Below, piece after piece: positions 5,625-35,738 of a stretch of DNA of 40,204 nt; position 1 is the first letter of the stretch, and each line of letters opens with the position of its first letter. The stretch spans positions 1-40,204 of the forward strand of contig CAJXRW010000002.1 of the NCBI GenBank assembly GCA_913060525.1, in the 5' to 3' direction. A program made the translations under genes and the position numbers. The notes beneath the pieces are model-generated. The model did no database searches and was not told where the DNA came from. It was given only the letters and a program-made list of their open reading frames with translations. This DNA is from an uncultured Gammaproteobacteria bacterium (GTDB taxonomy: Bacteria > Pseudomonadota > Gammaproteobacteria > Francisellales > Francisellaceae).

Positions 5625-5626
5625 AT

Positions 5627-12962: not shown

Positions 12963-12964
12963 TC

Positions 12965-13917: not shown

Positions 13918-13945
13918 ATATACTCCATACCAGTATGGAGTATAT
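13918..13945. promoter_or_regulatory. 28-bp perfect palindrome, operator of the RcnR-like repressor
   Basis: Two perfect 13-bp arms, ATATACTCCATAC and GTATGGAGTATAT, flank a CA centre and end 8 bases before the repressor's ATG at 13954. CsoR/RcnR-family proteins bind GC-centred inverted repeats with TACT/AGTA edges, as here. It probably overlaps the -10 region and gives autorepression. Confidence 0.75.
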
Positions 13946-13953
13946 ATCTAAAC

Positions 13954-14229: not shown

Positions 14230-14251
14230 ATTAAGCGTTTAAGGACATCAA

Positions 14252-17045: not shown

Positions 17046-17816
17046 TCAGCACTCATCTAAGGATAGGTCACACTCACCACAAATAACGGATAACCCACCC
17101 TTGCCCCACACATTCAAACCACACTCAAAGCATGTGTATTTTCGTTTGCGCTTATTGTCTTTTATAGTTGCAATACTACTATTCATTAACTTATCAGAAT
17201 TGAGGTTAAATAAGTTGTTTAGGCTGGATGTAAGCTGACTAACAACCTCAGAATCCATACCACCAAACGCTTGCTGCAGCACTTCCATTTTTTCTTCGTC
17301 ACTATCGCAAACAATACCAGATGCTTGTACATCAAGCCAAGGCATTTTAAACTTCTTGTCTCGCATGAGCCTTTCACAATCGGCAATAAATTTACCGTTA
17401 GGTAAAGGATAGTCAGCAATACACTGTCCTGTCATCGCCCCACCTGGTTTGCCAGTAGAAGATGGCATCAAGCCTAATAATTTCATTTTATTTGACCATT
17501 CTTTATTGTGATAAGTTTTGATGCTAGGCTTGCCATAGCAATACTGCCAACAATGGCACATTTCATGAACTAGTGTCTGCATTAGTTCTATTAATGTTGA
17601 TTTGGCTACATACAATGGGTTAATGGCAATCTCATGGCATTTACCACCCTCTGTATTAGTCCATCTGTCTGCAGAAAAATAACCAAACATTCCATTCTGT
17701 CGCTGCGTAGTGAATAAAACATTAGGTAGCTCATTATGAAATAGTGATTGATTAAAATAATCGTAGAGAATTTCAATTGATTGGTATAACTCTGATGTAG
17801 GATTTTTATTATACAT
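17046..17816 (-). CDS. SprT-like zinc metalloprotease
   Basis: A 256-residue SprT-like protein. The zinc-protease motif HEMCH (H84, E85, H88) follows the usual SprT preamble (EIAINP at 62-67, then a helix). The C-terminal 30 residues form a zinc ribbon with CFEC and CGEC. Bacterial SprT-like proteins of this size are common on plasmids and conjugative elements; by analogy with eukaryotic Spartan they may cleave proteins stuck on DNA, but that is untested here. The ATG at 17816 has no clear ribosome site; a palindrome lies upstream. It is followed 38 bases later by the DUF6973-like gene on the same strand. Confidence 0.8.
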   Translation of the reverse strand: MYNKNPTSELYQSIEILYDYFNQSLFHNELPNVLFTTQRQNGMFGYFSADRWTNTEGGKCHEIAINPLYVAKSTLIELMQTLVHEMCHCWQYCYGKPSIKTYHNKEWSNKMKLLGLMPSSTGKPGGAMTGQCIADYPLPNGKFIADCERLMRDKKFKMPWLDVQASGIVCDSDEEKMEVLQQAFGGMDSEVVSQLTSSLNNLFNLNSDKLMNSSIATIKDNKRKRKYTCFECGLNVWGKGGLSVICGECDLSLDEC

Positions 17817-19760: not shown

Positions 19761-20309
19761 TTAAGCGCATAAAAGTTTATGCAAACGTGAGCCACTGATG
19801 AGCCAGGTGTTTTTTAAATTACGATATGAACCCATTCCAGTTTTACCTGTATGAATAAATATTCCACCATCCAAGCGGTGAGTTAATACATAATCATTTA
19901 ATGCTTTAACATGCGCTGGATTTATGTGTTTTTGGTATCTCTTTGCTTGAATTGCGTATGTCTTGCCGTCTATGATCACAGAGCCATCACAACCACCATC
20001 GCCAGTGTACGCCTTGTTTCGCTTCACCTGATAACCACGAAATTCAAAGGCAAATAAAAGCAGCTCTTCAAAAACCAATGGATCAATTTTTCTGATGTAA
20101 GCAAAAAACTTGCCCGGCATGTTAAAATCATCTGATTGTAATTTTTTTAGCAACTTCTTTGCTTTGCTCGTTTTGCTAAAGTGCTTGGTTTTTCCAACAA
20201 TAAAAAATAGCCAAAGAAAACGAATTAACCCGTTCTTAGCGTTTGCCTTTGAGAATTCAAAAACCATTGGTTTACCCAACACCTGATCAATTTGGTTCGC
20301 TACTGTCAT
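19761..20309 (-). CDS. Mrr-type restriction-endonuclease-like protein
   Basis: A 182-residue protein with a PD-(D/E)xK nuclease fold of the Mrr type in its C-terminal half. FEELLLFAFEFRGYQV (80-95) supplies the leading Glu, GDGGCDG (D104, D108) the acidic residue, and AIQAKRY (Q121, K123) the QxK catalytic pair. Mrr proteins cleave (often methylated) DNA. The N-terminal 65 residues include a short hydrophobic stretch (IRFLWLFFIVG) that could be a membrane anchor. Its ATG overlaps the end of the UvrD-like helicase gene by 4 bases, so nuclease and helicase are made together. Confidence 0.85.
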   Translation of the reverse strand: MTVANQIDQVLGKPMVFEFSKANAKNGLIRFLWLFFIVGKTKHFSKTSKAKKLLKKLQSDDFNMPGKFFAYIRKIDPLVFEELLLFAFEFRGYQVKRNKAYTGDGGCDGSVIIDGKTYAIQAKRYQKHINPAHVKALNDYVLTHRLDGGIFIHTGKTGMGSYRNLKNTWLISGSRLHKLLCA

Positions 20310-22240
20310 GGTGACACCTCTGCAGATAGCTCGGGATTCTTTGAGATCAAACCATCAAGCAAAGGTGTGGTTAATATTGATGGCTCTCGCTGACAAGATT
20401 CATCACCGATTATTAAGCGTAATGATTTTCTGGCTCTGGTTATTGCAACATATAGAAGCCTACGTTCAGCCTCTAAATCAACCTCTTTATCTTCATTTTC
20501 AGTGGGGAATTTACCTTTATGCAAAGATGGGATAATAACATGATCCCATTCCAAACCTTTGCTGCGATGCATGCTGGTGATCATAACGCTATCTGCAGTT
20601 TGTTTGCTGGCACTCTTAGTTAGATTACTCCAGTAACTTTGAAATTGGCCCAAAGTGGCATATTTATCGCTACATTTTTTTGCAAGATAAATAATACTAT
20701 TTACAAGCTGTCTTTTATGTTCCGCATCTTCTTTGGATAGACTGCTAAACTCGAAATATTTCTGGTAGCCTAATTGGTAATACAAATCTTGTAGCATTAA
20801 TACCGCATCATCATGCTGAGAGATACCCAAAGCAAACTCCCAGATTTCCTGACGATTAATTAGCTGCTTAACTTGGTTTGATTTATCCAACTGAGACTCA
20901 ATTTCTAAAAATGCACTCATATCACTAGGATTTTCAGCTAAGCGACATACAAGCGTTGTTTTTGCCTGTCCATTAATAAAAAGCGCAGGGTTATTAAACA
21001 TCTTGGTTATGATGCTCTTTCTGTCCTCTAGTGATAGCTTAAGAAATGGTTCGGCATTATCAGCCAATAACGAATATCCAAATAACGACTTAATTGACGA
21101 GTGAGATAAAATACCATCACTGCCATCAATATTGTAAGGAACTCCAGCTGCAATAAATTCAACTTCAGTCGCGACTGAGTGACTGAATTCACGACACAAT
21201 ATGGCAATATCTTTCAATTCAGCCTGACTTGTTTTTAGCTCATCAACCAACAAAACTGGTAAGTAATTATTTTGAGTAATGTAGCGAATATCTGTTTTTT
21301 CTGTTGTGTCTGCAGAAACACATTCAATCTCAAAACGATTTTGATTTTGCTGGATAAGGGATGCCGCCAATTTTGACAAATCCGATCCAAACCTGAATGT
21401 TTTAGACAGCTTAAGTTGCGTAACATTTTTATATTTTTCTGAAAACTGATTCAGCATAATATCGGGATCAGATCCTCTGAACTCATAAATAGTTTGATCA
21501 ATATCCCCTACAGCCATAATGCTTGCCTTAACGATAGATTTACCTTTTTCATCTCTCCCTGAAGCTAAAATATCAACTAAAGCTTGCTGCATTGGGTTAA
21601 TATCCTGGTACTCATCTAAAGTTATATGTTTCAGGCGATTATTGAAAAGTTGATGGAGCTTAATATCTTGATTAAGTGCTTGCACCAGGTCAAAAATAAG
21701 ATCATCAAAAAACCTGATTTTATTTTGTTTGCGTAAGACTTCAAATTGATTGAATAGCTCTACTGCTTGACCTTGTTTTTCTCCTTGATAGTGGATTTCG
21801 TTTGCGCATCGAGCTTTGATCCAAGTAATAATGCCTTGCAAAGATTCAATTTCCTCGCGACCATCACTTAGCCCTTGCGCTTTAAGTGTTTCTCGGCATA
21901 AATACTGATAACGAGAGTTTGAGTCATCCAGTTTCCAATCTTCGACAATTCCCAAAGCAATTAATCGTTTTAACATATTAGAAGCCAGAGAATGAAATGT
22001 ACGGACTTGTGGTAAGGGTGTATTAGGCTTGGTGACTTTTTTTAATCGTCTATAAAAATCAAGTTGTGCAGATTTGCCGAACATGATCACCAGCATTGTA
22101 CGTGATGCAACACCATCATTTAATAGCTGCCCCACTCGACCGACAAGTGAGTGTGTTTTACCAGAACCTGGTACAGCTATTACAAGCGAATGACCTGATT
22201 TATGCTTAGTTATAGCTTGTTGCTCTTTCGTGTTTTTCAT
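20306..22240 (-). CDS. UvrD/Rep-like superfamily 1 helicase
   Basis: A 644-residue ATP-dependent DNA helicase. Motifs in order: Q-motif TKEQQAITKH, Walker A VPGSGKT (23-29), Walker B LDEYQDINPMQQ, motif III GDIDQTIYEFRGSDP, motif V SMHRSKGLEWDHVI, and motif VI ERRLLYVAITRARKSL. AGGAA precedes the ATG. It follows virD4 and is coupled to an Mrr-type nuclease (4-base overlap). Either a transfer accessory or a two-gene DNA-defence module fits. GajB of Gabija is also UvrD-like, but its partner is an OLD-type nuclease, unlike here. Confidence 0.93.
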   Translation of the reverse strand: MKNTKEQQAITKHKSGHSLVIAVPGSGKTHSLVGRVGQLLNDGVASRTMLVIMFGKSAQLDFYRRLKKVTKPNTPLPQVRTFHSLASNMLKRLIALGIVEDWKLDDSNSRYQYLCRETLKAQGLSDGREEIESLQGIITWIKARCANEIHYQGEKQGQAVELFNQFEVLRKQNKIRFFDDLIFDLVQALNQDIKLHQLFNNRLKHITLDEYQDINPMQQALVDILASGRDEKGKSIVKASIMAVGDIDQTIYEFRGSDPDIMLNQFSEKYKNVTQLKLSKTFRFGSDLSKLAASLIQQNQNRFEIECVSADTTEKTDIRYITQNNYLPVLLVDELKTSQAELKDIAILCREFSHSVATEVEFIAAGVPYNIDGSDGILSHSSIKSLFGYSLLADNAEPFLKLSLEDRKSIITKMFNNPALFINGQAKTTLVCRLAENPSDMSAFLEIESQLDKSNQVKQLINRQEIWEFALGISQHDDAVLMLQDLYYQLGYQKYFEFSSLSKEDAEHKRQLVNSIIYLAKKCSDKYATLGQFQSYWSNLTKSASKQTADSVMITSMHRSKGLEWDHVIIPSLHKGKFPTENEDKEVDLEAERRLLYVAITRARKSLRLIIGDESCQREPSILTTPLLDGLISKNPELSAEVSP

Positions 22241-22271: not shown

Positions 22272-24230
22272 TTAAGACGCAGTTATAAGAGCTTGAGTTT
22301 GTTGCCACTTAGCAAAGCCCTCTTTATCTTCATACGGATTAGGGTCAAACATATTTTTAAGATGTGGTAGTTTAAAATACTGCGCTTTCTTACATTTAAT
22401 TGGATGGATACCAGGTATAAAAATAAACTGTTCATCTTTGGATAAGGTTCTAATGTCATTTATATCAAGTAAATCTTTTGCTTGTTCATTAAGACTAATC
22501 ATCGGAGAAGATCGATCACTTTTAAAGCTGGTTGATTGTGACATTCCTTCTGCCAATACCGTGGTCTTGCCTGCAATCTTCTGAATCCATTCCATTGACT
22601 TTGGATCATCGGTGCGTAAAAACTGAATGACTGGCATTCCCTTAAAAGTTGCTTCATCTTGATATTTATCAAGCTGGCCAAGCGTTTGGAAAAATCCCCA
22701 AGTATACACCCCTCTTGCTCTCAAAGTTGCGACTGCTTGTTCAACATCAGGCAGATAACCTTGCTGACCTAGTTCATCCAGCATTAATAGATATTGACTC
22801 TTTAATTTAGAAATAGGTGTTTGAACAATGGCATCTTTAATGGTTGCCAACAACACCCTAAAAATACGTGATAAAGATCGATTCTTGACAGCATCCTCTG
22901 GTAAAACTACATAAATGTCACAATCCTCAGTAGCAAAGTCTCTGATATTCTTATCACCCTTAAATGCTTCTCTAACTGAACTTGATCGTAACCACATTAA
23001 TTGACGATAAACAGAGGTTTTCATTGATGTTGTTTCATCCGCACCATCCATTGCAAGATGCGCATAAGCAGCCTTAGCTTTTAAGGTGGATCCACCTAAT
23101 TCACTCAAGCCGTCTTTTTCGCTTACAATTCTTAGCCACCAATCATGAAATGCGACTAAATTAAGATGCGTTGGTGTATCCATGTTTACACCAATATAAT
23201 GATCCAAAACCCCTTCCATAATGATTTGAGCGAAATCACTAAAATGTTTAGATGTATCTGATTCTTTATCACCTGGTGAAGAAAGCAAAGCACTGGCCAA
23301 TGAATTAACACAACGATCCCTGATATCCTCATCACGCCAGTTAATGCCAGCTAAAGGGTTAATCGCACAGATAGGTAAATCACCACAACCGATATCTTTT
23401 AAAATCCTGAATGCATCATGGATATAAACCGTTCTCCCTGAAGCTATTCTTCTTCTTGCTGTAACGGCTGCTATCTCTCCTTTAATATCGGTAATATACA
23501 TGTTTGTATTTGGGTACTCTAATATCATCGGCATTAAGACAGCAGTTGTTTTCATCGACCCCCTGAATCCCATAACTAAACGATCTGTTAATGGGTATCT
23601 TAAATAGCCATCATCCTCACCAAGCAACGTGCCTTCTTTACTGCGCAAGCCAAAACGTTGATAATCGAGATCATCTGCCATTCGTGCAGCACCAAGATTT
23701 TGAGAGGTTTGGTCACGTTGAACATCCATCCGTGAGCTGGCCATAAAAAACTTTAAAACACGTATTCCAAATATAAAGAATGCGATAATTAGCGTTTGAA
23801 CCAAATAAGCAGATAACCACCCTTGCCAGAGTTCATCCGATGGATAGTTCAAGACTCTAACAAAGTGCATAGAGATGAATAACTGACCCATTAAGTTAAT
23901 TAACACACCAACTGCTAATCCCCAATGCACACCAAACATTAAACCAACCCGATACAAATTACCTGTCTTATTTTCTTTCTGGCGGTAATATAAAAAACAA
24001 TAAAGTGAAACTGCAATGAACAAATAGATAGCAATATATAGAAAATGATGCGAATAGCTGATCATATCGGCATAGCTGGATGATTTAATATGCCCTAAGT
24101 TAATAACATCAACCAACCCCAAAATGACAACTGCAGAAACCATAAAAATAGCTGAAACAGTCATCCCAAAAAATTTTTGGATAGGTGAATATTTATTTGA
24201 ATCCATCCCCCATTTTGCTAAAACAACCAT
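22272..24230 (-). CDS. virD4: VirD4/TraG-type conjugative coupling protein
   Basis: A 652-residue type IV coupling protein that brings the relaxase-DNA complex to the channel. The N-terminal 165 residues hold four hydrophobic helices. The ATPase part has the expected LEYPNTNMYITDIKGE context after the P-loop, Walker B LLMLDELG (481-488), and the late motifs of the TraG family. The P-loop is unusual: GFRGSMKTT (221-229) has Met where nearly all P-loops have Gly before the catalytic Lys. ATG 24230 follows the previous gene by 3 bases; an internal ATG at residue 9 is possible. Confidence 0.93.
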   Translation of the reverse strand: MVVLAKWGMDSNKYSPIQKFFGMTVSAIFMVSAVVILGLVDVINLGHIKSSSYADMISYSHHFLYIAIYLFIAVSLYCFLYYRQKENKTGNLYRVGLMFGVHWGLAVGVLINLMGQLFISMHFVRVLNYPSDELWQGWLSAYLVQTLIIAFFIFGIRVLKFFMASSRMDVQRDQTSQNLGAARMADDLDYQRFGLRSKEGTLLGEDDGYLRYPLTDRLVMGFRGSMKTTAVLMPMILEYPNTNMYITDIKGEIAAVTARRRIASGRTVYIHDAFRILKDIGCGDLPICAINPLAGINWRDEDIRDRCVNSLASALLSSPGDKESDTSKHFSDFAQIIMEGVLDHYIGVNMDTPTHLNLVAFHDWWLRIVSEKDGLSELGGSTLKAKAAYAHLAMDGADETTSMKTSVYRQLMWLRSSSVREAFKGDKNIRDFATEDCDIYVVLPEDAVKNRSLSRIFRVLLATIKDAIVQTPISKLKSQYLLMLDELGQQGYLPDVEQAVATLRARGVYTWGFFQTLGQLDKYQDEATFKGMPVIQFLRTDDPKSMEWIQKIAGKTTVLAEGMSQSTSFKSDRSSPMISLNEQAKDLLDINDIRTLSKDEQFIFIPGIHPIKCKKAQYFKLPHLKNMFDPNPYEDKEGFAKWQQTQALITAS

Positions 24231-24233: not shown

Positions 24234-24611
24234 TTATTCTTCCGCTTCAAAAGACTTTTGCTGCTTATGAGTGGTGCTACTAGCACCTGTTCGAATTAGC
24301 TTTGCTGTTATTAAAAAACCTTGAGTATATGAAAATCCATATCCATAACTATATGAGGAGCTAACGGATTGCTCTCTACTCATCAGGCGACTCATAAAAC
24401 CCTTTTGTGCCGTCATGCCATATTTATATGCGCCATTGCCAGCCGTTATCGGGGTTACACTAGCAATCTCATATCCTTGGTTTTCTAGCGCATTCACTTC
24501 TCTTTCTAAGTCTCTCTCTAGCGCTTGTAAGTCAACAGCAATAGATGTGCCTGTCTCATCCCCAACCAATCGTGACTCAACAGTAATTATTTTTGTACCA
24601 GAGTAATTCAT
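24234..24611 (-). CDS. Small transfer-cluster protein, DUF4177-like
   Basis: A 125-residue soluble protein. The middle part LEREVNALENQGYEIASVTPI resembles the helix-then-strand of DUF4177-like proteins (LNxxGxxGWElVs). It is followed by a Tyr/Ser/Gly run (SSSYSYGYGFSYT) and a strand LITAKLIRTG. It has no signal peptide or membrane segment. It lies between the VirB7-like lipoprotein and VirD4 with 3- to 10-base gaps, so it is part of the transfer operon. Function not known. Confidence 0.65.
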   Translation of the reverse strand: MNYSGTKIITVESRLVGDETGTSIAVDLQALERDLEREVNALENQGYEIASVTPITAGNGAYKYGMTAQKGFMSRLMSREQSVSSSYSYGYGFSYTQGFLITAKLIRTGASSTTHKQQKSFEAEE

Positions 24612-24620
24612 TTCATAACC

Positions 24621-25046
24621 TTAATTTTGCTGACTCATTGCTTCCATTCTTTTTGCCTGCATCGCCGTATCGTCATTAATTGCTGCAGTATAAAAGTGTT
24701 GGCAGTTACTACCAACTTCAACAAAATCGTTACCTTGTGAGCAATACTGCTGTGCTTGCTTATAAAGCGGTGTATCATAGCGATGTTGCACTTCCCAATA
24801 TGTACCCCATTTGCAATCAGGAAAGCCAGACGCATTGCAAGTATCTTGCTTTAACCAATCCATAGCTTGTGTTGTTGTAACTCCAGCACAAATAGTTGGC
24901 ATCGGTGGGAGCGTACTAGCTTGCTCAACTGGTTTTTTTTGCGCTTGTGGTGGGTGCAATAATCTATTTAATTCGGAACATCCAGAAATCATTAAGATAA
25001 TTCCACTAAAAATAGAAGTGAATAATATTTTTGATTTTATATTCAT
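24621..25046 (-). CDS. VirB7-like transfer lipoprotein
   Basis: A 141-residue lipoprotein with lipobox MISGC (acylated C23). A Pro-rich linker follows, then a domain with six further cysteines (CAGV, DTCNASGFPDCKWG, QYCSQGN, SNCQHF), which suggests disulfide bonds. Its place in the cluster and lipid anchor suit the VirB7/TrbH role of fixing the VirB9-VirB10 core in the outer membrane, but it is much longer than classical VirB7 (about 50 residues). The assignment is by position and lipobox. Confidence 0.6.
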   Translation of the reverse strand: MNIKSKILFTSIFSGIILMISGCSELNRLLHPPQAQKKPVEQASTLPPMPTICAGVTTTQAMDWLKQDTCNASGFPDCKWGTYWEVQHRYDTPLYKQAQQYCSQGNDFVEVGSNCQHFYTAAINDDTAMQAKRMEAMSQQN

Positions 25047-25057
25047 TGCAAAATTCC

Positions 25058-25759
25058 TTAGAAATTATAATAAACAGCTAGGTTAAAAATATTTATGCCA
25101 TGATTGTCTGTGCCATTCTCACCAGCATCATAGGCGACTTGATAATATTGATACTCAAGCCTGGCACTAATATTACTTCTAAAGTCAACATTAACCCCAA
25201 GACCAACATTAAACGCTCCTCTGATTAGCGTTCCAGATTCACTAGCACCACCAACTGTCTGGTCGTAAGGTGTGAAATTAACACCATATCCACCTCTTAT
25301 ATACGGACTAATGGTATAACCGTATGATGAAATAACTGGGTACATTGCCAATAAATTGGCATTCAAATTATAAATGCTTGCAGAGTAATCAAAGCTATTT
25401 GTACCTAATGAACCACTACCATCAAGACTACCTAATCGGTTTCCTGCCAGCTCTAATGAAAAATAATCATTAAATTTATAACCAGCAAAAATACCAAAAT
25501 TCACTGCAGTGGAATTTAGAGATGCGCTAGCTGTCCCTGTTGTGGTTGCGACTGTGTATTGATCAGTTGTGAAAAAACCAACACCACCCAGAACACCAGC
25601 ATAAAACTTACTCTTAATATCATACGAAATATTTTGATACCCTGAATTTTGATATGGATCAGGTGTTTGACTTGGATCATTTGCAAACGCACTAACTGTT
25701 GCACCAGCAATACCTGTTAAGGCTGCGAATGCTGCAATATGTTTTCTATAATTTTTCAT
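25058..25759 (-). CDS. Outer-membrane beta-barrel protein in the transfer cluster
   Basis: A 233-residue protein with a signal peptide (to about ASAFAND). Alternating amphipathic strands end in a terminal Phe (FNLAVYYNF), the signature of an OmpA/OmpW-type eight-stranded outer-membrane barrel. Motifs YAGVLGGVGFF, GYKFNDYFSLELAGN, YTISPYIRGGYGVNF and ARLEYQYYQVAY fit. A barrel gene inside a trb operon is not standard. It could aid donor-recipient contact, exclusion or pore stability, but no role can be shown. It is 8 bases from its upstream neighbour on the same strand. Confidence 0.8.
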   Translation of the reverse strand: MKNYRKHIAAFAALTGIAGATVSAFANDPSQTPDPYQNSGYQNISYDIKSKFYAGVLGGVGFFTTDQYTVATTTGTASASLNSTAVNFGIFAGYKFNDYFSLELAGNRLGSLDGSGSLGTNSFDYSASIYNLNANLLAMYPVISSYGYTISPYIRGGYGVNFTPYDQTVGGASESGTLIRGAFNVGLGVNVDFRSNISARLEYQYYQVAYDAGENGTDNHGINIFNLAVYYNF

Positions 25760-25767
25760 TACTACCC

Positions 25768-26328
25768 TTAATTATCTTCGAATTGTTTATTTTCATACGC
25801 TTCATTTAAAAGCGATTCATTTATGCTCTCGATGTTATATTTTTGGTATAGATGGTCGCATAGCTTCCAATTTAAAGCGTTCCAGTATCTTCTAATCACA
25901 GCCAGCGCACCTGTTGCAGTCATAAGCAACATAAAATAAGGAAAGACATCAAATGAAAAAATCTTTAATGTCATAAAATTGGTAAAATAACCTATCAAAC
26001 CAATTAATGTAAAAACAAACCCATTTAAGTAGTTATTGGTATAGTCCATCATGGGTATCCAAAACGCCATCCCAAGACACAAACCTAACCCAATAACTGT
26101 TAAAAATGGAAAACCAATAAGTAATTTAGCGATACCAAAAAATGCAGCCACCATGCAGACATTAGCAAAGGTCATTCCACGTGAATAAGCGTGATCAGAA
26201 GTGTTCCTTGGTACATCTCTCCCAATACAGAAAAGAGAATAAATATAATCCAAAGTGCTAGTTTTAACCTTGCCAAACTTAACCACTTCATTCCAGCCGT
26301 TATAATTCATATTGATTGCTCCGTTCAT
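25768..26328 (-). CDS. Transfer-cluster membrane protein, unknown
   Basis: A 186-residue protein with an N-terminal soluble segment, then about four hydrophobic helices (roughly 52-70, 75-92, 100-120, 122-145), and a charged tail. AGGTGA precedes the ATG. It sits between virB10 and the beta-barrel gene. No family recognised. The hydrophobic layout suggests an inner-membrane accessory of the channel. Confidence 0.6.
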   Translation of the reverse strand: MNGAINMNYNGWNEVVKFGKVKTSTLDYIYSLFCIGRDVPRNTSDHAYSRGMTFANVCMVAAFFGIAKLLIGFPFLTVIGLGLCLGMAFWIPMMDYTNNYLNGFVFTLIGLIGYFTNFMTLKIFSFDVFPYFMLLMTATGALAVIRRYWNALNWKLCDHLYQKYNIESINESLLNEAYENKQFEDN

Positions 26329-26339
26329 ATAATCACCTA

Positions 26340-27548
26340 TTAACGGTAGCTGTATGGCCCAGGAAAGACCATATCTCTAGTTATTAAAATATTAAAATTT
26401 GCACCTGGACGGATTTCTAAAGTCGGCTGAATATTCAAATCTTTTTGCAGCATTTGTGATCCAGCTTCTGTTAAGTTTTGGCCAACAGCAGCAAACAATA
26501 TTTGCTGATTGGTTAGCGTGTTATTCAATCCACCCTGCTGTGGTTGCGACAACTGCGCTCCAGCACTAAAAATACTCAATAACACCACCGAACTAAACAT
26601 TTTCCAATAATGGTTATTGACGATATCCGACAAGCCAGAGTAGCCAGCCAAGTCTGCACCAGGCATCCCTTGTAAATCCAACGAGTTACCATTAGGGAAA
26701 ACCAATCTTTTCCAAGCAAATAAAACCCTGCTTTGGCCATAAGCCACTTTGGAGCTATAAACACCTATTGCAGTTGTACCTTGCGGTATAAGCAAATAAT
26801 TACCTGTTACCGTGTCAAATACATTACGGTTGATCTTTGCTGTTATTTGTCCAGGTAAATCAGAATTCATACCTGTTTGTAATGTTGCTGGAATTATCCC
26901 ACCAGCAAACGCAACATATGGGCTAACTGGTTTCTGGATAGATGATTTTAGCTGGAAATCATCGTTTGCTTTCTGCTGTTCTGCTAAAAACTTACCGTTC
27001 TCACCCTGCATGTTTTGTTGATTATAAGTATCGTTTCTGCCAGCCTGACTTTGATTAACCTGTCCTAATGCTTTATCCATAAGCTGAAGTGCGCCATTTA
27101 CATCTCTTGGGCGTTGAGCTGCAGATGGGTTATGTTGTACATTGGTGGCTGTTATTGCAGAAGTTGGTGCATTCAGCGCCTGCTGCAAGTCTTGGTCGAC
27201 CTGTTGCTGCTGATGGGCAACTGTTGTTTGAGCTGGCATCTCAGCTTGTTTCGTTACTGTATCTGGTTTCTTAACTACTGGCTTTTCATCCTTGATTAAA
27301 GAGCCATATACTCGATTTTCTTTCATTGAATTAATAATACTGTCTGTTGATTGCTCAGTGGGTGTAACTAAAAGATGACTATCACTAGAGACATCGTTTT
27401 TTTCTGCTTGCCTATTACTTATATTCTTACTGACAAACACACCAATCAAAACAACTACAACAGCAGCAACCAAGCCAACAATAGCTAATCGCTTACCATT
27501 AAAGCCTCGGCTTCTTGGTGCTTGTGGTAATTCTTGATTCTCACTCAT
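26340..27548 (-). CDS. virB10: VirB10/TrbI core-complex protein
   Basis: A 402-residue protein with a cytoplasmic N-terminus, one inner-membrane helix (22-43), a Gln/Pro-rich periplasmic linker and a C-terminal beta-barrel domain. Family motifs: INRNVFDTVTGNYLLIPQGT, GQSRVLFAWKRLVFPNG and LPGAD-like GMPGADLAGYSGLSD. It spans both membranes and couples ATPase energy to the outer-membrane pore. It lies next to virB9 as usual. Confidence 0.94.
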   Translation of the reverse strand: MSENQELPQAPRSRGFNGKRLAIVGLVAAVVVVLIGVFVSKNISNRQAEKNDVSSDSHLLVTPTEQSTDSIINSMKENRVYGSLIKDEKPVVKKPDTVTKQAEMPAQTTVAHQQQQVDQDLQQALNAPTSAITATNVQHNPSAAQRPRDVNGALQLMDKALGQVNQSQAGRNDTYNQQNMQGENGKFLAEQQKANDDFQLKSSIQKPVSPYVAFAGGIIPATLQTGMNSDLPGQITAKINRNVFDTVTGNYLLIPQGTTAIGVYSSKVAYGQSRVLFAWKRLVFPNGNSLDLQGMPGADLAGYSGLSDIVNNHYWKMFSSVVLLSIFSAGAQLSQPQQGGLNNTLTNQQILFAAVGQNLTEAGSQMLQKDLNIQPTLEIRPGANFNILITRDMVFPGPYSYR

Positions 27549-27559
27549 AGCTGATCCAT

Positions 27560-28561
27560 TTATTTAATGTTTTCGTTTAAAATTTCAACCCTTACCTGAT
27601 CTGATCCTTTGCCATCAACCAACCATGCTCTTGAGAACAAACCGTCAACGATAAAATAAGGTTTTTTGTAGCGATAATTTACAAGCTGTAATTCTTTTCC
27701 TTTCGCTAAATAAAGAACAGGTAATTGAAATTTATCTGTTAGATTAGGTAACTGAATAAATGTTTTTGATCCATCATCAAAAATACGCAATGGTCTCCAT
27801 ACAGGGCTATCACCCTTAATTTTATAGTTGAAATTCATGGCATTAATGCTGCCAAGATTTGTGCCTTGCGCTATAACCGTTTCACCAGCAGAAGCAGCTG
27901 AAGAATTTGAACTAACAACACCATTACGTTTATTAAATTGTTCTTGCTGGTATTTTTGAGCATTTAATACTGCATTAATGGCAGTTTCTTGTGGGTAATA
28001 ATATCGTAACACTGAGCTACCAGCACCTTTCTCTGACACTAGGCTAACAAAATAATTACGCTTATCTGTTGAGAGAATTAAATCCGTGGCAATATTTTCT
28101 TTGGTAGGTTTTGCTGTAATTGATACGGCAGTATTTGCACCAGCTCCAGTGGCAAACTGACCAATCTTCCAGCGTACCGTATCGCCAGCATTAACAGATA
28201 ATAATTGCTCCCCTGTTTGTAACTGGATAACACACATATTAAGTGGTTGGCACTGAATATATTGCTTAGTATTTGGTGAATATGGCACAGTATGCCAGCC
28301 ATCACTTTGTACGGATTCAGCCTGACCAGTCGTTAAATATTTCTCATATGCTTTAACCACGGCTGGATCATTACCTATACCGTATGTTGATTCTACATTC
28401 TGCGGTAAAGCAGGCACTTTAATTTCTTTTGTCTCAACTCGTGTCGGTTGCGAAAAATCATCAGGATTATAATTCACAACTGGTTGCTTGGCACAACCAC
28501 TCAGCACAACGGCAGAAATAGTTAAACTTGATAATAAGACACTTGATTTAATTTTTAACAT
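27560..28561 (-). CDS. virB9: VirB9/TrbG core-complex protein, lipobox-bearing
   Basis: A 333-residue periplasmic protein with the VirB9/TrbG C-terminal beta domain: YKIKGDSPVWRPLRIFDDGSK..IQLP, then LVNYRYKKPYFIVDGLFSRAWLVDG. It forms the outer ring with VirB10. The signal ends in LSGC (C23), a clear lipobox, so this VirB9 may itself be lipidated, which is unusual. Its ATG is 2 bases from the virB8 stop, suggesting coupling. Confidence 0.93.
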   Translation of the reverse strand: MLKIKSSVLLSSLTISAVVLSGCAKQPVVNYNPDDFSQPTRVETKEIKVPALPQNVESTYGIGNDPAVVKAYEKYLTTGQAESVQSDGWHTVPYSPNTKQYIQCQPLNMCVIQLQTGEQLLSVNAGDTVRWKIGQFATGAGANTAVSITAKPTKENIATDLILSTDKRNYFVSLVSEKGAGSSVLRYYYPQETAINAVLNAQKYQQEQFNKRNGVVSSNSSAASAGETVIAQGTNLGSINAMNFNYKIKGDSPVWRPLRIFDDGSKTFIQLPNLTDKFQLPVLYLAKGKELQLVNYRYKKPYFIVDGLFSRAWLVDGKGSDQVRVEILNENIK

Positions 28562-28563
28562 GA

Positions 28564-29367
28564 TTAATTTACTCCGTTAAGTGATGAAATTGCTGTCCAG
28601 CTAAAGGACGTAATGTAAAAGCCGAATGGGTTAAGTTTTAGGAAGTCCATATTTTGTGATGGTTTATCAAACTTATAAGCAAATGTGCCTTTAAAGTGCC
28701 TAACGCTGATCACTTTTCCTGTTTTTGCCTGGCGTATGGTTTCAGTCCAACCAGCTTGTAAAACATTGTCAGTGTTCGCTAATGGCGACATATATGAAAC
28801 ATCAACTTCAATCGTATTTTCCGAACCAATTTGGTTGGGGTCACTCTCTCTATAAAAATCTTCTAATTGTGTCGTAGCATTATCCCTAACCAGTGCAAAC
28901 GCCTGTCTCCTATCTGCGCTATTAATCGCACCATCTGATGAAACAGTGCGTGAAGCTTCAATATATTTTTGCAGAAAAAAGGCAATGAATTGCGCTCTGT
29001 AACGCTCAAAACTGGCAGGCTTCATTAATTCGCCATACAAGATATGATCATTTTGAACAACGGTTACATAGGGTTCAATTTTAGATTGTCCACCTAAGTA
29101 AACGACACTTATTAACAGAAATACAATGATTCCCATTAGCCATTTATTTAATCTTCTAGCGTGATGTAATGACTTTAAAACACCACCATATAGACTCTGG
29201 TATAAATTAACTGACTGTAAATAAGGATTATTTGTCGTATTCTCATCTTCCTTGAAAGTTGCTTCTTTGATACCACTAGGTTTAGGGGTGCTTGTGTTAG
29301 TATCAGCACTTTTTGGCTGACTTGGCGCACCTTTAGGTTTGAATGGATTTTTAAACTTAACTGCCAT
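28564..29367 (-). CDS. virB8: VirB8/TrbF assembly protein
   Basis: A 267-residue bitopic protein. A charged Pro/Ser-rich cytoplasmic part (1-70) precedes one membrane helix (about 74-92), then a periplasmic NTF2-like domain with ARRLNKWL before the helix and YVTVVQNDHILYG after it. It nucleates the channel and contacts VirB9 and VirB10. GGAGA lies before the ATG. Confidence 0.92.
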   Translation of the reverse strand: MAVKFKNPFKPKGAPSQPKSADTNTSTPKPSGIKEATFKEDENTTNNPYLQSVNLYQSLYGGVLKSLHHARRLNKWLMGIIVFLLISVVYLGGQSKIEPYVTVVQNDHILYGELMKPASFERYRAQFIAFFLQKYIEASRTVSSDGAINSADRRQAFALVRDNATTQLEDFYRESDPNQIGSENTIEVDVSYMSPLANTDNVLQAGWTETIRQAKTGKVISVRHFKGTFAYKFDKPSQNMDFLKLNPFGFYITSFSWTAISSLNGVN

Positions 29368-29378
29368 GCTATTCTCCG

Positions 29379-30599
29379 TTATTTCTTATTAGTCTGATTA
29401 GTGTTTTTAGGGCGTTGAATTGTGTTTGATCGAGCGGATGAATTAGGTACGCTTGATCCAGAATCTTGAGATGAAGATGATTGTTTCATTGTGTTTAAAT
29501 GGTTTTGCATTTGTTGATTCATTTTTTGACCAAATGAACGACCTTTATTCTCTTTCATGACGCTCTGCTTAATGGCTGAACCCATACTTTTTGCAGTTTT
29601 ACCAGCAATTGCAGAAGCAAGCTTGCCAGTGCTTCTAAATGCGCCACCATCAGAGTCTTTAAATGCTTGCACACCAACACCACCAGCAGTTGAACCAAAT
29701 TTGGCTAATTGCCCAGCACCTTGTGCAGCCATACCGCCAACACCTGTCGCAGTCATTGCCATACGCGCACCTTGCATGCCAGCATTAATTGCCAATCCTG
29801 CTGCTGCATCACCTTGGTTATGGAATCCACCAACGCCTGATAACTCACCTATTTTTGCAGGGATATTTTTAATAATTAAGTAATAAATAATGACGGCAGC
29901 CATCACCACGAAAAAAGGTGTTATCTCTGAATTTTCAGCGGCTTGTTTTAACATCACAGCCCAATCACCACCAATGGTTACACCTACCCCAATTAACAAG
30001 TAAAGTGTTAATAACTGCAGACCAGTACCAATGACTTTTTTGAAATAGTTTTTAGCCATTTCTCGTGTTACTTCAAGACCACCAAATGCCCAAAACATTG
30101 GCCCAAGCGCAACTAGCACATAGGCAAACACAAGCACCAATGCAAGTTCTGCAGCAATTAATGAATAGATAATAATAATGACGAACATTAAGACCACGGC
30201 AGATAAAGTTAGAAATGGATGAGAGAAAAAACCAAATGTGCCAAAACCATCAAAAATAGACATACCTATTGATAAACCTTGATCTATAACCGCGCTTGGT
30301 GACAAGCTAGTGATATGCCCTGCTTTAGAACCAACATCCATCAAACCATTAATCAAAATAGGCATCCACTCACCAGTGAACATAATCAAGGTAATAAAAA
30401 CGGATGCGATAAAGGCAGCTTGGATCAACTTAACAGTCATTTCCAATACACCACCACGCATCATTCCCCAGATGGCAGTCATAATTAATTGAATGCCAAT
30501 CATGTAATAAATTAAGGTGTACCCAAATGATTGAATGCTTGAGAAGCTACCCTGCATTGCATCCAAAAATTCTTTTAAAACGGTATTTAATATTTCCAT
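29379..30599 (-). CDS. virB6: VirB6/TrbL polytopic channel protein
   Basis: A 406-residue inner-membrane protein with six or so helices in the first 250 residues, including the TrbL/VirB6-typical central Gly/Ala-rich region. The C-terminal third is soluble, rich in Gly, Ser, Gln and Asn (SSSSQDSGSSVPNSS). It forms the inner-membrane part of the DNA path. Length and tail match TrbL better than short VirB6 proteins. Confidence 0.9.
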   Translation of the reverse strand: MEILNTVLKEFLDAMQGSFSSIQSFGYTLIYYMIGIQLIMTAIWGMMRGGVLEMTVKLIQAAFIASVFITLIMFTGEWMPILINGLMDVGSKAGHITSLSPSAVIDQGLSIGMSIFDGFGTFGFFSHPFLTLSAVVLMFVIIIIYSLIAAELALVLVFAYVLVALGPMFWAFGGLEVTREMAKNYFKKVIGTGLQLLTLYLLIGVGVTIGGDWAVMLKQAAENSEITPFFVVMAAVIIYYLIIKNIPAKIGELSGVGGFHNQGDAAAGLAINAGMQGARMAMTATGVGGMAAQGAGQLAKFGSTAGGVGVQAFKDSDGGAFRSTGKLASAIAGKTAKSMGSAIKQSVMKENKGRSFGQKMNQQMQNHLNTMKQSSSSQDSGSSVPNSSARSNTIQRPKNTNQTNKK

Positions 30600-30611
30600 T
30601 GCGCTGCAGCC

Positions 30612-31391
30612 TTATCTAAATGATGGAACATTGCCGAGAGAGCTATCGTTTTGATAGCTATGCCAAGTCGTATCAGTGTTTTGCATCATGTCACTAACCG
30701 TTTTTTCTGCTGCAGCTTCTTTTTGCGTCTGCATTGCCATGTATTTCGTTTGTGCCTGAGTTTGTGCCATCATTAGTGCTCTGAGCTTTTGAAGCTGCGC
30801 AACTTGTTCAGCTGCGATCTGATTACCAGCTTGAACGGCTTGTAAATTTCCTTGCGCACCGCCAGATAATGATTTCAATTGATTAACTAAACCACTTTCA
30901 TTTTGCATATCGTCATTGTTTTGCCTTAAAACCCCCATTGTATTGGTGAGATTTTGCATATTGTCGTCAGTCCATCCCTTATATTGCTGCTGGTATGTTT
31001 TACCTGATGTGGTGCTAAAATCTTCGTACCCTGGATACATTTGTTTCATCTTTGCTGAAACATCTTGCATTGCATACGATATGTTATTTCCCTCGGACAT
31101 TATGTTTGACATCTGACTTAATGCATCCTGAGCATTATCCCAAGCCGACATTGGCATATTGGCTAAGTTTTTTGCTTGGTTTTGAATCTGATCTAACTGG
31201 TTAGTGATTTGATTGTATGAATTAATTAATTCCTCAACATAAATGATGTAATTCATCACTTGATTTAAGGTTGTTTGCGAGTTCAAAGCAGCATCTGTTA
31301 CAGGGATAAGCGCATAAGATGGTGTCACACTTACTGCACCACCTATCAAAGAAGCAGACACTAAAAAAGGTATAATTTTTTTAACTCTCAT
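30612..31391 (-). CDS. virB5: VirB5/TrbJ pilus-associated protein
   Basis: A secreted protein of about 259 residues with a signal peptide (MRVKKIIPFLVSASL to SYA) and long Gln/Asn/Met-rich coiled-coil helices, as in TrbJ/VirB5, the minor pilus-tip component. I place the start at ATG 31391. AAGGAG lies 6 bases before it, while an in-frame ATG 66 bases upstream lies inside the virB4 coding region and would put 22 charged residues before the signal. It begins 10 bases after the virB4 stop. Confidence 0.9.
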   Translation of the reverse strand: MRVKKIIPFLVSASLIGGAVSVTPSYALIPVTDAALNSQTTLNQVMNYIIYVEELINSYNQITNQLDQIQNQAKNLANMPMSAWDNAQDALSQMSNIMSEGNNISYAMQDVSAKMKQMYPGYEDFSTTSGKTYQQQYKGWTDDNMQNLTNTMGVLRQNNDDMQNESGLVNQLKSLSGGAQGNLQAVQAGNQIAAEQVAQLQKLRALMMAQTQAQTKYMAMQTQKEAAAEKTVSDMMQNTDTTWHSYQNDSSLGNVPSFR

Positions 31392-31401
31392 GATCATCTC
31401 C

Positions 31402-33990
31402 TTATGCTTCTGTTTCAGAACTGAAATATGCTTTTTCAACGTAGTCTTTCCAGTCAAATAAACGCTTTTCTTCTAGATAATTCAGAATCCATTTAGGATC
31501 ATCTTTTTTGTATATTTTCTCGAATTCTTTGTACGCTTCACCTGAAACACCAATGAAAGCAAGTTCCAAAGGTGAAAGATCAAAATCAATCAAACGGTTG
31601 CCTTGTGAAGAAGTAATGTAATACTGCCTTTTAGGGATTGCCGTTTGTAGAATATCTAGCTGCTGCTCGTTCAATCCAAACTGAAGATAAATGTCACGAA
31701 CTTTAGGATTTCCTAAGTATTCATTCGGTAGGTAGATAATATTTGGGCAAGATTGAATTAATTCACTTGCTAGACCTGGTATGCCTGCTACATCCTCAAC
31801 ATTTTGAGTTACTGGCATCACAGAGACATTGAATTTACGCAGTGTTTTAAGCCAATTTTTAAGTTCTTTAAGAAAGATAGGGTGATACAAGTACTGCCAA
31901 AACTCTTCTAAGATTAACAATGTGAACATAGCTAATTTAAAGTCTTTCTCCATGCGATGGAAAATGAAGCGTAATGTCGAAATCATTATTTCTTCCGACA
32001 TATCAAGAATCTTATCCATGGCCATGCAGAGTTTTCTGTTTGAAGAAAAAGTATCTTCTGTACCAGACAATAGACCGTTAGTGCTATCTTTGTACTCAAT
32101 CCACGCATCACGCAACTCAGGCACTTGGAAGTCCAAATCATCGATTGATAATCCTGAATCGGTTGATTTATGGGAGCGAAACTTTGAAACTACTTCTTCA
32201 CGAATGTATTTTTTAGCTTTTGAATCAACTGAAATGCCTGATAACTCAAATATCTGATTAATCCATTGGGTAATCCAGCCTAGTTCTATATTAAAATCAT
32301 CTGAATTCTCTTCGTGCTTCATTAATTCTGAAAGCGGTGCATAAGCCGTTTGTGCTAAATCCATCACCTCACCGCCTGCAGCTTTTACCCAAGCTGCATT
32401 AGAATTATCTTTATCAAAAACCTTGATGCTGATATTTGGATATTTCATCCATGACATGCCCATCAAAGCAATTAATGTGGACTTACCAGATCCAGTTGGC
32501 CCAAGCACCATGGTATGCATGACATCTGAAACACAGTTACTAAATCTAAATACACGATTATCTCTTGTTTTTGCGTAGATTAACGCAGGCTGATTGCCTG
32601 GCATTCTTGGGTGTGGGAATGTTTTATTGCCAGACCAAACCCCTGATGTTGGTGTCGCATGTGATAGATAAACGGTGTCAACAATTGGTTTTCTAATGTT
32701 GTATCCACCATGTCCAGGAATTGAACCCAAATAAGCTTCCGTTGTATTAACACTTTCATCACGAACCTTAAATCCTTCCGATGAAATTATGTTTGAAATA
32801 TTCTCAGCCATTAACTCTAGCTGACTAATATCTTCATGCATTAACACCACAACTGAGGTGTAATATCCATATCTGACCAATCCAGAATCATTCTCAGTAA
32901 TTGCTGCTTGAGTTTGGTATTTTTTTGCTTCTGCAGCTTCATCCAACTGAACCTGTAAACCCATCGCAGCTTTTACAACTCCAACCGCACCAAGTGCTTG
33001 AGATGACCAGTTACGTTTAATTTTATTGAGTTCTTTTTTAGCTGATGATGGAGATAAAGCGATATATCTTGATGACCAACGGTACTCACATCCCATATAA
33101 TTTAGTTCATCTAGTACAGCTGGCCAAGTTTCCTCTGGTAAGTCATCTATGTGTAATGTTTTGACATATTTTTTGCCAATTCTTGGTGTTAAACCAGGTA
33201 TAAAATCTTCTGTTGATAGGTAATAATCCAACATATAACCACAAGATGGTTGGCGTAATGGTTTCTTATCACCAGTAATACAGAACTTCAAAAAACTAAC
33301 TAATTTATCACCTGATAAACGATTTACGTGAGATAAAATATTCTCTGGATCATCTGGATCACTATCCGTATTTGCTGTCGTTATTTTTGCATATTGAGAG
33401 AAGAATGTGCCAATTTTATTATTGAAAGTCGCAACCTCTTTTTCAAGCGGTGAATCCTGTTTATGTCCGCTATCATCCCTAAACCAACGACTAATGCTTT
33501 TGGCAACCATATCGGTTGGCTTGTAAGTGAATGAAAGAAAATATCTTGAACGATAAACTGTTCCACCCTTTTCAAAATTGAAACGTCTAGCATCATCAAT
33601 GACCGCTGCAACAATATTATCAAAACGAATTGGATCATAATATTTAGAATCTTCTTCTGAAACTAAATCCCATTGAACCATCCAACCATCTGATAATTCA
33701 TTTAATGCAAGTTGAATTGCTTTGGCATTTGCATCGAGCATATATCCAGTTGATGAGTCAACGTCTTTAGGTAGATATTCAAATACAGACTGCATTGAAC
33801 CATCTTTGTGAAAAATAATATCTTCACTCAACATAAACGCATAACTTAGAACGGATGCAAAATCTCGGTGAGCTTGTAGTTTAGTGATTGAGTCCATTAA
33901 CTCAGGCTTATAAGCTTTGCTGCCCCAGACTGCATCGATAAAAAATCGCCAAGTTAGTAATGCTGTTTTCTTTACTTTATCAACTTGCAT
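31402..33990 (-). CDS. virB4: VirB4/TrbE transfer ATPase
   Basis: A protein of about 862 residues, the largest ATPase of the channel, needed for pilus assembly and substrate transfer. It has an N-terminal VirB3-docking and CagE/TrbE domain, then Walker A LGPTGSGKST and Walker B TLLILEEFWQYL in the C-terminal half, then MPVTQNVEDVAGIPG and LPNEYLGNPKVRDIY. Start chosen at ATG 33990, which has AGGGGG 9 bases upstream. A TTG nine bases earlier overlaps the virB3 stop and is less likely. Confidence 0.95.
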   Translation of the reverse strand: MQVDKVKKTALLTWRFFIDAVWGSKAYKPELMDSITKLQAHRDFASVLSYAFMLSEDIIFHKDGSMQSVFEYLPKDVDSSTGYMLDANAKAIQLALNELSDGWMVQWDLVSEEDSKYYDPIRFDNIVAAVIDDARRFNFEKGGTVYRSRYFLSFTYKPTDMVAKSISRWFRDDSGHKQDSPLEKEVATFNNKIGTFFSQYAKITTANTDSDPDDPENILSHVNRLSGDKLVSFLKFCITGDKKPLRQPSCGYMLDYYLSTEDFIPGLTPRIGKKYVKTLHIDDLPEETWPAVLDELNYMGCEYRWSSRYIALSPSSAKKELNKIKRNWSSQALGAVGVVKAAMGLQVQLDEAAEAKKYQTQAAITENDSGLVRYGYYTSVVVLMHEDISQLELMAENISNIISSEGFKVRDESVNTTEAYLGSIPGHGGYNIRKPIVDTVYLSHATPTSGVWSGNKTFPHPRMPGNQPALIYAKTRDNRVFRFSNCVSDVMHTMVLGPTGSGKSTLIALMGMSWMKYPNISIKVFDKDNSNAAWVKAAGGEVMDLAQTAYAPLSELMKHEENSDDFNIELGWITQWINQIFELSGISVDSKAKKYIREEVVSKFRSHKSTDSGLSIDDLDFQVPELRDAWIEYKDSTNGLLSGTEDTFSSNRKLCMAMDKILDMSEEIMISTLRFIFHRMEKDFKLAMFTLLILEEFWQYLYHPIFLKELKNWLKTLRKFNVSVMPVTQNVEDVAGIPGLASELIQSCPNIIYLPNEYLGNPKVRDIYLQFGLNEQQLDILQTAIPKRQYYITSSQGNRLIDFDLSPLELAFIGVSGEAYKEFEKIYKKDDPKWILNYLEEKRLFDWKDYVEKAYFSSETEA

Positions 33991-33995
33991 ATTGA

Positions 33996-34358
33996 TCAAC
34001 CCCCTTTCGGTGTTTTTGAAATCTTGTTAAAGGCGATGGCAGAAACCTTGTTAAGCTTGAAATTGAAATTCACACTTCCCCTTGCAGGGTAATAAGATTT
34101 CTGAACTAGAAACCTTGAATTGGCTTTAAATGCTGGTACATATCTTGGGTCAGCTTTAGCTGCAAACCTTAATCCCATGAAGCAAATAACAAAGCCAACT
34201 ATGCATATAATTAACTCAAAACCAACTCCTATACCAAAGCCTGCATAGCACCAAAAAAAGATGTTGATAAGCATTAAAGATTTATCACCACCCAGCATTA
34301 ATTGAGTGGTGTTTAGAGCTTTATTTGTTGATCTTGGTGTTCCTCTATGTGTTGCCAT
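33996..34358 (-). CDS. virB3: VirB3/TrbD inner-membrane protein
   Basis: A 120-residue protein with one or two hydrophobic helices (about 29-46 and 47-66) and a C-terminal basic tail. Its position between virB2 and virB4 and the VirB3-style layout (short soluble N-terminus, hydrophobic hairpin, DPRYVPAF region) identify it. It works with VirB4 in pilus biogenesis. Confidence 0.88.
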   Translation of the reverse strand: MATHRGTPRSTNKALNTTQLMLGGDKSLMLINIFFWCYAGFGIGVGFELIICIVGFVICFMGLRFAAKADPRYVPAFKANSRFLVQKSYYPARGSVNFNFKLNKVSAIAFNKISKTPKGG

Positions 34359-34373
34359 GCTACTCCCCTGTTT

Positions 34374-34721
34374 TTAGAAAATGGTGGCTGATGGAATAGT
34401 AAACATTGTTGACATAATTGTTACTGCTCCAAAGGCAATAGAAATACCAAGTGCTGCTTGAACGAATTTTTTAGCACCGCCTTGTAAATCAAGAAATGCC
34501 ATCGCCAAACCAGCCAGCACAACCGCAATTCCAGCACACGCATAAGCAACTGGCCCAGATAATGAATCCATGATTTTCTTTAAAGTCACAGTCCAAGGAT
34601 ATTGATCTGTGGTACTGGCAAATGTCATTGACGACATAAATGTGAAAAATATAATTGCCGTAACCCCTTTTTTGGTTAATGCCTTGGTATTTTCCACTAT
34701 TGTTTTTAGTTTTTTGCTCAT
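34374..34721 (-). CDS. virB2: VirB2/TrbC pilin
   Basis: A 115-residue prepilin. A long signal peptide (to about FAS) is followed by a short mature pilin with two hydrophobic helices (SGPVAYACAGIAVVLAGLAMAFL and KKFVQAALGISIAFGAVTIM) split by a small polar loop (DLQGGA). This is the VirB2/TrbC two-helix pilus subunit. AAGGAG precedes the ATG. Confidence 0.93.
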   Translation of the reverse strand: MSKKLKTIVENTKALTKKGVTAIIFFTFMSSMTFASTTDQYPWTVTLKKIMDSLSGPVAYACAGIAVVLAGLAMAFLDLQGGAKKFVQAALGISIAFGAVTIMSTMFTIPSATIF

Positions 34722-34739
34722 TATTTTCTCCTTGTTAAG

Positions 34740-35738
34740 TTAAGCAATTTGTTCAATCTCGAACTTCTGTTTTTGGTTAGACCAACCTTTATTAATTGAA
34801 ACTTCGTGTACATAACGCCCAGCTTCGAACTGGCTCGATCTTCTGATATTGACCATTACATTGATTGTTTCCGAAACTAAGTCGTAGGGTGGTGTTTGAA
34901 TTGCTTCTTGCGATAAAGAAACAATCCTTAATAATGAAGATTCAGCTGTATTAGAATGGACTGTGCAGACACCGCCCGGTGTTCCTGTATTCCACGCTTT
35001 GAGCATATCTAGTGCTGCGCCATCTCTAACCTCTCCTAAAAATATTCTGTCTGGTCTCGATCTCATTGCTGACTTAACCAGCTCCTGCATCGTGACAGGT
35101 TCAGTACCAAATTCGTCAGTCAGGAGAGGAACGACATTCTGCATCTGGCACTGAATTTCCTGAACATCTTCCAAGATCAAAATTCTCTCCATCGGGTCAG
35201 AAATCCTTGGCAGTTCATTAATTATTGCATTGGTAAAAGTAGTTTTACCTGTACCTGGACCACCAGAAGTTAAAATATTGCAACGATCTGAAATCGCTTT
35301 CAAAATTGCTTCAACTTGCTTTTTTGTGATCATTTTTTTATTCAAGTAACTTTCAATTGGATAGATGTATTTGGCTGGCTTTCTAAGCGTGATATGCGGA
35401 CATGGCCCACAGACTGGTGGCAAATCAGCGTGTAAACGCTCACGCCCAAAAACAGGCTCAGGAAGCCTTGTATCAAGTATGTTTCGATATCCCATTGGTC
35501 TACCAGAAACCTCTGCAGCTTTTTTGACAAAATTAACTGCATCGTGGGGGTCAATATTACCTAACAAATACATACCATTTTTACGATCTTCGACAAATAC
35601 TTTAGAGTCAGGATTAATCATGATTTCCATCACATCTTCATTATCCAAACACTCACAGATAGCTTTCCCAAGATAGTTCTTCATATTTTGAAACTGCCTT
35701 ATTTCTCTCTCTTTATTCAAACTATTTGTGGTTTTCAT
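34740..35738 (-). CDS. virB11: VirB11/TrbB traffic ATPase
   Basis: A 332-residue hexameric ATPase of the VirB11/PulE family. Walker A GGPGTGKTTF (159-168), Asp box ILILEDVQEI, Walker B LGEVRDGAALDML and His box GGVCTVHSNTAESS are all clear. It powers pilus extension and switching of VirB4/VirD4. As first channel gene it gives the order B11-B2-B3-B4-B5-B6-B8-B9-B10, as in the Ti-plasmid trb set. Confidence 0.95.
   Translation of the reverse strand: MKTTNSLNKEREIRQFQNMKNYLGKAICECLDNEDVMEIMINPDSKVFVEDRKNGMYLLGNIDPHDAVNFVKKAAEVSGRPMGYRNILDTRLPEPVFGRERLHADLPPVCGPCPHITLRKPAKYIYPIESYLNKKMITKKQVEAILKAISDRCNILTSGGPGTGKTTFTNAIINELPRISDPMERILILEDVQEIQCQMQNVVPLLTDEFGTEPVTMQELVKSAMRSRPDRIFLGEVRDGAALDMLKAWNTGTPGGVCTVHSNTAESSLLRIVSLSQEAIQTPPYDLVSETINVMVNIRRSSQFEAGRYVHEVSINKGWSNQKQKFEIEQIA

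Follow-up and report, generated by a model that had tools for sequence, protein, structure and literature searches.

In Gabija, a UvrD-like helicase gene adjoins the gene of a nuclease, GajA, an OLD-family ATPase/TOPRIM enzyme. Nucleases with an Mrr_cat domain include E. coli EcoKMrr, described as carrying an N-terminal winged-helix binding domain (PMC12707154), and IncN plasmid N3 has a gene annotated mrr (PMC3347995). The entry exclusion protein TraS is described as dispensable for transfer, inner-membrane and encoded in the transfer region (PMC7690428). In the window (the whole stretch of 40,204 nucleotides that was analysed, a whole contig of a genome of 2.65 Mb that is 84% complete), a UvrD-like helicase gene and an Mrr-type nuclease gene follow the coupling protein gene of a transfer region:

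24234..35738, minus strand: Trb/VirB transfer genes (VirB11, VirB4, TrbL, TrbF, TrbG, VirB10/TrbI and small ORFs)
22272..24230, minus strand: VirD4-type coupling protein, just upstream of the pair (Pfam T4SS-DNA_transf, 2.1e-39)
20306..22240, minus strand: UvrD-like SF1 helicase, 644 aa (Pfam and a tree of 19 sequences)
20306..20309, minus strand: ATGA stop/start overlap of 4 bases, predicted translational coupling (sequence read)
19761..20309, minus strand: Mrr_cat (PD-QxK) nuclease, 182 aa, of a conjugation-linked subfamily (Pfam Mrr_cat, 4.6e-17)

NCBIfam matches in 24234..35738 are to VirB4/TrbE, TrbL, TrbF, TrbG and TrbI, and the VirB11 label comes from a profile search seeded by eye. The original prediction of a translationally coupled helicase and Mrr-type nuclease behind virD4 is borne out by the Pfam identities, by the 4-base ATGA at 20306-20309 with both reading frames at the predicted coordinates, and by the 31 bases that separate the end of virD4 from the helicase start; the nuclease comes after the helicase, with virD4 two genes upstream of it. 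Its placing of the pair at the tail of the transfer operon is right in that the pair lies behind virD4 but not in the strict sense, as same-strand ORFs run on below 19733: the next one (19455-19733) begins 27 bases past the nuclease stop and two more lie behind. Two small ORFs in 19174-19733, after the nuclease, have signal-peptide-like starts and paired cysteines and look similar by eye; Pfam gave no match for either, and they are possible exclusion or periplasmic factors. GC content is alike in virD4, helicase and nuclease (0.37-0.38), and a horizontal origin argued from base composition was discarded for want of contrast among the three genes. A promoter scan was uninformative, with 17 sites against 26.9 in shuffles, that is, fewer than in shuffled sequence.

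The Mrr_cat match spans nuclease residues 72-180 (Pfam, E=4.6e-17), and blastp relatives of the nuclease are 38-59% identical to it. In an alignment with E. coli K-12 Mrr, D108 falls on D203, presumably the catalytic residue of that enzyme, and QAK121-123 on QAK219-221. Because D108 has this counterpart and is identical, like Q121 and K123, in 91 of 91 family sequences, against 89 of 91 for D104, it is likely to be the catalytic Asp, in place of the D104 named by the original prediction. The nuclease can be annotated as follows:

20196..20246, minus strand: weak N-terminal hydrophobic segment, residues 22-38 (hydropathy 1.17)
19986..19988, minus strand: probable catalytic Asp D108, invariant (91/91), aligned with E. 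coli Mrr D203
19941..19949, minus strand: putative catalytic QAK, Q121-K123, with Q121 and K123 invariant (91/91)

Only about 70 residues, a hydrophobic segment and a short linker with no other domain match, precede the nuclease domain; they stand in place of the winged-helix DNA reader of E. coli Mrr, which both the alignment and Pfam show to be missing. With regard to what defines a Type IV Mrr enzyme, the PD-QxK Mrr_cat domain is thus present and an N-terminal DNA- or modification-reading domain absent. The membrane segment suspected earlier is clear in most relatives, since 74 of the 91 family members have an N-terminal hydrophobic helix scoring at least 1.6, but it is marginal in the window copy, where 17 residues average 1.17 on the Kyte-Doolittle scale; the helix is weak also in the nearest relatives of that copy. 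Basic residues come after the helix in family members, and the nuclease domain would, by the positive-inside rule, face the cytoplasm. An AlphaFold2 model of the nuclease (mean pLDDT 87.6, pTM 0.78) is confident in the nuclease domain and of low confidence at the N-terminus, where a short helix is placed at residues 27-37. Foldseek returned nothing at 1e-3 for this model; the top match, to AspBHI, is weak (E=9.6e-3), and MspJI and Hjc resolvases, also weak, are among the nearest. A PDB sequence search gave one weak 19-residue stretch with the nuclease itself and nothing with a 55-sequence profile.

The mrr genes of IncN and IncL/M plasmids (for example N3, near kikA, and pRSB205) belong to the same subfamily, with 50-52% identity over the nuclease domain and, as in the family, the hydrophobic helix at the N-terminus and the catalytic motif. 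They differ in having no helicase and in their site, which is beyond kikA/korB (IncN) or near parM (IncL/M) and not behind virD4.

What recurs is where this nuclease is encoded. A profile search of genome contigs, built on 14 aligned relatives of the nuclease, returned 221 relatives, the best 80 loci being kept. In 38 of these best 80 of 221 a coupling protein or relaxase label lies directly beside the nuclease (same strand, gap <=150), compared with a mean of 6.9 and a maximum of 16 in 2,000 draws of random genes from the same loci; such a label lies within two genes in 48 of the 80, and some labelled transfer gene is present in the stretch in 56. Adjacency is found in 18 of 43 nuclease clusters at 70% identity. 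The remaining 42 of the best 80 loci lack direct adjacency, and in 24 of the 80, some of them cut by contig ends, the stretch contains no gene with a transfer label. Two labels from iterative profiles, 'VirB1_LT' and a 162-residue 'VirB4', were not matched by any NCBIfam family in the examples examined; neither enters the counts of 38 and 48, and that of 56 is independent of VirB1_LT. NCBIfam scans of ten neighbours placed TraD (TIGR03754; L064, L059, L111) and the relaxases MobF (L088) and MobQ (L123) above cut-off, found strong matches below cut-off for F-type TraD (L088), the Bacteroidetes MobC coupling protein (L073) and VirD4 (L072), and gave no family for L064 6745-7350 and L110 8458-8946. 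Gene orders at related loci are:

Enterobacterial elements: DUF2859, nuclease, TraD (TIGR03754)
Photobacterium and Shewanella: nuclease, TraD
Sphingomonads: TraD, MobF, nuclease
Legionella MAG: virB9, virB10, virB11, virD4, nuclease
Crocinitomix: coupling protein, nuclease
Micavibrio: nuclease, virD4
Desulfatitalea: MobQ relaxase, nuclease
Fangia and a MAG of the host's family: nuclease inside DotG/DotA-like operons (names by eye; no Pfam match for the DotA-like protein of Fangia)

The linkage to coupling protein or relaxase is seen across several secretion-system types. The nearest relatives of the window nuclease in the tree are from a host-family MAG, Fangia, Cysteiniphilum and a Legionella MAG. 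Over a tree of 83 sequences (the 91 minus 8 incomplete or duplicate), the coupling-protein label requires at least six changes, three of them forced by well supported branches, and the relaxase label two; these labels were set by hand, and the coupling-protein-linked state includes eight loci in which a single gene separates the nuclease from TraD, as well as L129 (TraD broken), the window, L057 and L013. As a control, 22 other Mrr_cat loci, some of which share one region of one genome, had no coupling protein or relaxase in their 1.5 kb flanks (24 Mrr_cat matches from 56 genomes, with the window and the subfamily member G061 set aside).

Could the two genes nevertheless sit behind virD4 by chance, as unrelated cargo with no joint function, the nuclease being a type IV restriction enzyme that works alone? 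The Mrr_cat family is one of restriction enzymes, and relatives of both the helicase and VirD4 occur elsewhere with no nuclease beside them, as this would predict. However, several lineages show adjacency to a coupling protein or relaxase, more often than chance would give, and the winged-helix reader is missing, which makes chance cargo distinctly unlikely in our view.

The linkage does not make the nuclease a core part of transfer. Searching 369 class genomes with the TraD model TIGR03754 gave loci in 32 of them, and because none of the 30 stretches kept (flanks up to 1.5 kb) carries the nuclease, we conclude that it is an optional accessory beside the coupling protein in some lineages. Nor is it the relaxase in those related loci where MobF or MobQ is encoded directly beside it; in the 84% complete host genome, no match was found to the MOBP (PF03432) or MOBF (PF08751) relaxase profiles. 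A nuclease working with the relaxase and coupling protein might instead process DNA during transfer, trimming, nicking or resolving intermediates or freeing stuck strands. Such a function would suit the recurrence of the linkage across transfer-system types, the weak match of the modelled fold to Hjc Holliday-junction resolvases and the description of PD-(D/E)XK folds among MOBC relaxases (PMC12857230), but it sits poorly with an enzyme that is optional at TraD loci and that replaces no relaxase where MobF or MobQ is its neighbour, and we consider it unlikely.

The helicase, by comparison with the nuclease, has no recurring place in these loci. Within the fetched stretches of the best 80 of 221 nuclease loci, no ORF matches the window helicase at 1e-4 and none receives a UvrD label by iterated profile. 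With the same profiles, neither helicase nor nuclease was found in five stretches around relatives of the window VirD4 (L047-L051), and relatives of the helicase elsewhere have no nuclease beside them. The pair is not a recurring system, the helicase being found with the nuclease only in the window, and the recurring defence module entertained by the original prediction is not supported over these best 80 loci. That prediction had also reasoned that a pair found only in transfer operons would be a conjugation component; what tracks transfer genes is the nuclease, and not the pair.

These observations bear on a Gabija-style reading, in which the transfer operon carries a two-gene anti-phage or anti-plasmid module as a passenger: the helicase would sense or unwind foreign DNA, and the nuclease would cut it. 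The adjoining genes and their ATGA coupling are what one would expect of it, PADLOC models for GajB hit the helicase (down to 8.7e-52), and the nuclease has weak matches, at best values, to type IV restriction (5.4e-6) and candidate PDC-S02 (1.3e-5) models. Yet the helicase scores higher against the PcrA model (201.6 bits) than against GajB (174.4 bits), the pair is absent around all 80 of the best 80 of 221 nuclease relatives, and the sole recurring linkage is to transfer genes. The nuclease is also of another kind, Mrr_cat by Pfam and not the OLD-type TOPRIM of GajA, and no GajA model is among the matches listed for 10 proteins (the pair, six near neighbours and two distant ORFs), in agreement with the earlier remark that it is unlike Gabija's nuclease. 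A phage-defence pair like Gabija is thus not supported, and we hold the module reading to be improbable.

The helicase itself has its motifs intact, including PGSGKT (residues 24-29; the Walker A, identified by eye), DEYQD (at 209) and YVAITRA (at 597), and matches Pfam UvrD-helicase (E=1.5e-41) and UvrD_C (4e-29). In the tree of 19 it stands away from E. coli Rep/UvrD (100/99), among UvrD-like helicases of plasmids and of the host's family, and has a long branch that leaves its nearest kin unsure; host-family genes are 31-35% identical to it and plasmid genes 28-31%. Some of the host-family kin are located near an RsfS-like gene (by eye). At 1e-84 the only orthologue in the 33 genomes of the host's order is on its own contig, with none in the other 32. 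Two of the plasmid helicase genes likewise share an overlap with a neighbour: in Azonexus this is a DUF3799 nuclease, in IncHI1 a CoiA-like ORF of nuclease-like appearance (sole Pfam match CoiA_N, just under cut-off). In the IncHI1 stretch L038 (4003-7025), an ATGA overlap joins the CoiA-like ORF to the UvrD-like helicase, the two lying between trhN and trhI, inside the transfer region as in the window. Both cases differ from the window, however, in an unrelated first partner, a reversed order (partner first) and helicases only 28-31% identical. Helicases of this kind seem to acquire varied partners when on plasmids, although three cases, the window included, are too few for a rule.

We therefore favour, with moderate confidence, an optional Mrr-type accessory nuclease of conjugative elements that most likely serves exclusion at the level of DNA and that, in the window, gained a helicase. 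The nuclease would be the founding piece, from an Mrr-type subfamily repeatedly placed beside a coupling protein or relaxase. In most members, the N-terminal hydrophobic helix and the basic residues could anchor the nuclease domain to the cytoplasmic side of the inner membrane, close to the pore, where it would cut DNA of redundant or rival elements that reaches the pore or is loaded onto it. In the window, a UvrD-like helicase may have come in between virD4 and the nuclease and become coupled to the latter by the ATGA, presumably to unwind the nuclease's substrate; we infer this cooperation from the overlap in a single genome, just as the membrane side, the action at the pore and exclusion itself are inferred. 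Exclusion of rival plasmids, one of the roles first proposed, is still a live option, and we prefer it to a core transfer role because TraS is likewise dispensable, inner-membrane and encoded with transfer genes. The analogy has a limit: the target of TraS and Eex is the mating channel, and neither is a nuclease. Several points speak against the favoured reading: the loci that lack direct adjacency or any labelled transfer gene, the plasmid copies sited elsewhere than in the core transfer operon, and the weak hydrophobic helix of the window copy and its nearest relatives. Moreover, no self/non-self signal was found, and restriction enzymes are described as typically acting on double-stranded DNA, whereas conjugation brings a single strand (PMC12707154). 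A wider proposal, that in several phyla conjugative elements possess a dedicated nuclease, tethered at the pore next to the coupling protein and destroying redundant or competing DNA at entry, to which the window's lineage added a helicase motor, is put forward tentatively and with more doubt than belief.

If the nuclease guards the transfer pore, this could be an unrecognised way for plasmids and integrative elements to exclude one another and, if pore exclusion is the true reading, an exclusion layer acting on DNA and not on the mating channel. The family is widespread and little studied; a literature search of titles and abstracts found no paper linking it to coupling proteins, and on common plasmids it is labelled only 'restriction endonuclease' or mrr. 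The pore-guard idea is testable in laboratory strains, since the nuclease is already on such plasmids (IncN, IncL/M). The locus also carries a caution, as a helicase-nuclease overlap need not mean a new phage-defence pair: here it is transfer genes to which the nuclease is recurrently linked.

At 1e-5, the nuclease matches 2,571 plasmid records, of which 2,003 are typed as conjugative, 314 as non-mobilizable and 254 as mobilizable, numbers that stand without a whole-collection baseline. In 13 of the 2,571 a single place covers 80% of the query, a small number because the N-terminus diverges. On IncN, IncL/M, Xanthomonas, Agrobacterium and Pseudomonas plasmids, the gene is not part of the core transfer operon. 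No match was found in 50,697 phage records, and three viral-contig scans (nuclease as query in two, helicase in one) gave no confirmed match; a phage-borne nuclease family was rejected on these results. A Treponema nuclease clade (L086, L097, L106, L132, L061, L103, L126) has neighbourhoods without labelled transfer genes, the nuclease of L061 coming after a topoisomerase gene. In the window's own genome, a second Mrr_cat protein (C303, 2702-3058, in a longer open frame of 305 aa) has no transfer genes in its 1.5 kb flanks.

One further gene may belong with the nuclease:

17046..17816, minus strand: SprT-like metalloprotease (Mpr-like; Pfam SprT-like, 5.4e-12)

It is 39-40% identical to SprT/Mpr genes that lie beside or close to the nuclease in two related loci (L022 8530-9735 and L080 8643-9656), and is possibly part of the same accessory set. 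SprT-like proteases elsewhere cut DNA-bound proteins, and the enzyme might suit covalent relaxase-DNA adducts. Metal-handling genes, among them a heavy-metal P-type ATPase (NCBIfam; the others by eye), adjoin the transfer region at 1-15190 of the window, which together suggests a metal-resistance mobile element. At 38749-39156 the window also has a RelE-family toxin gene (Pfam, 4.3e-33).
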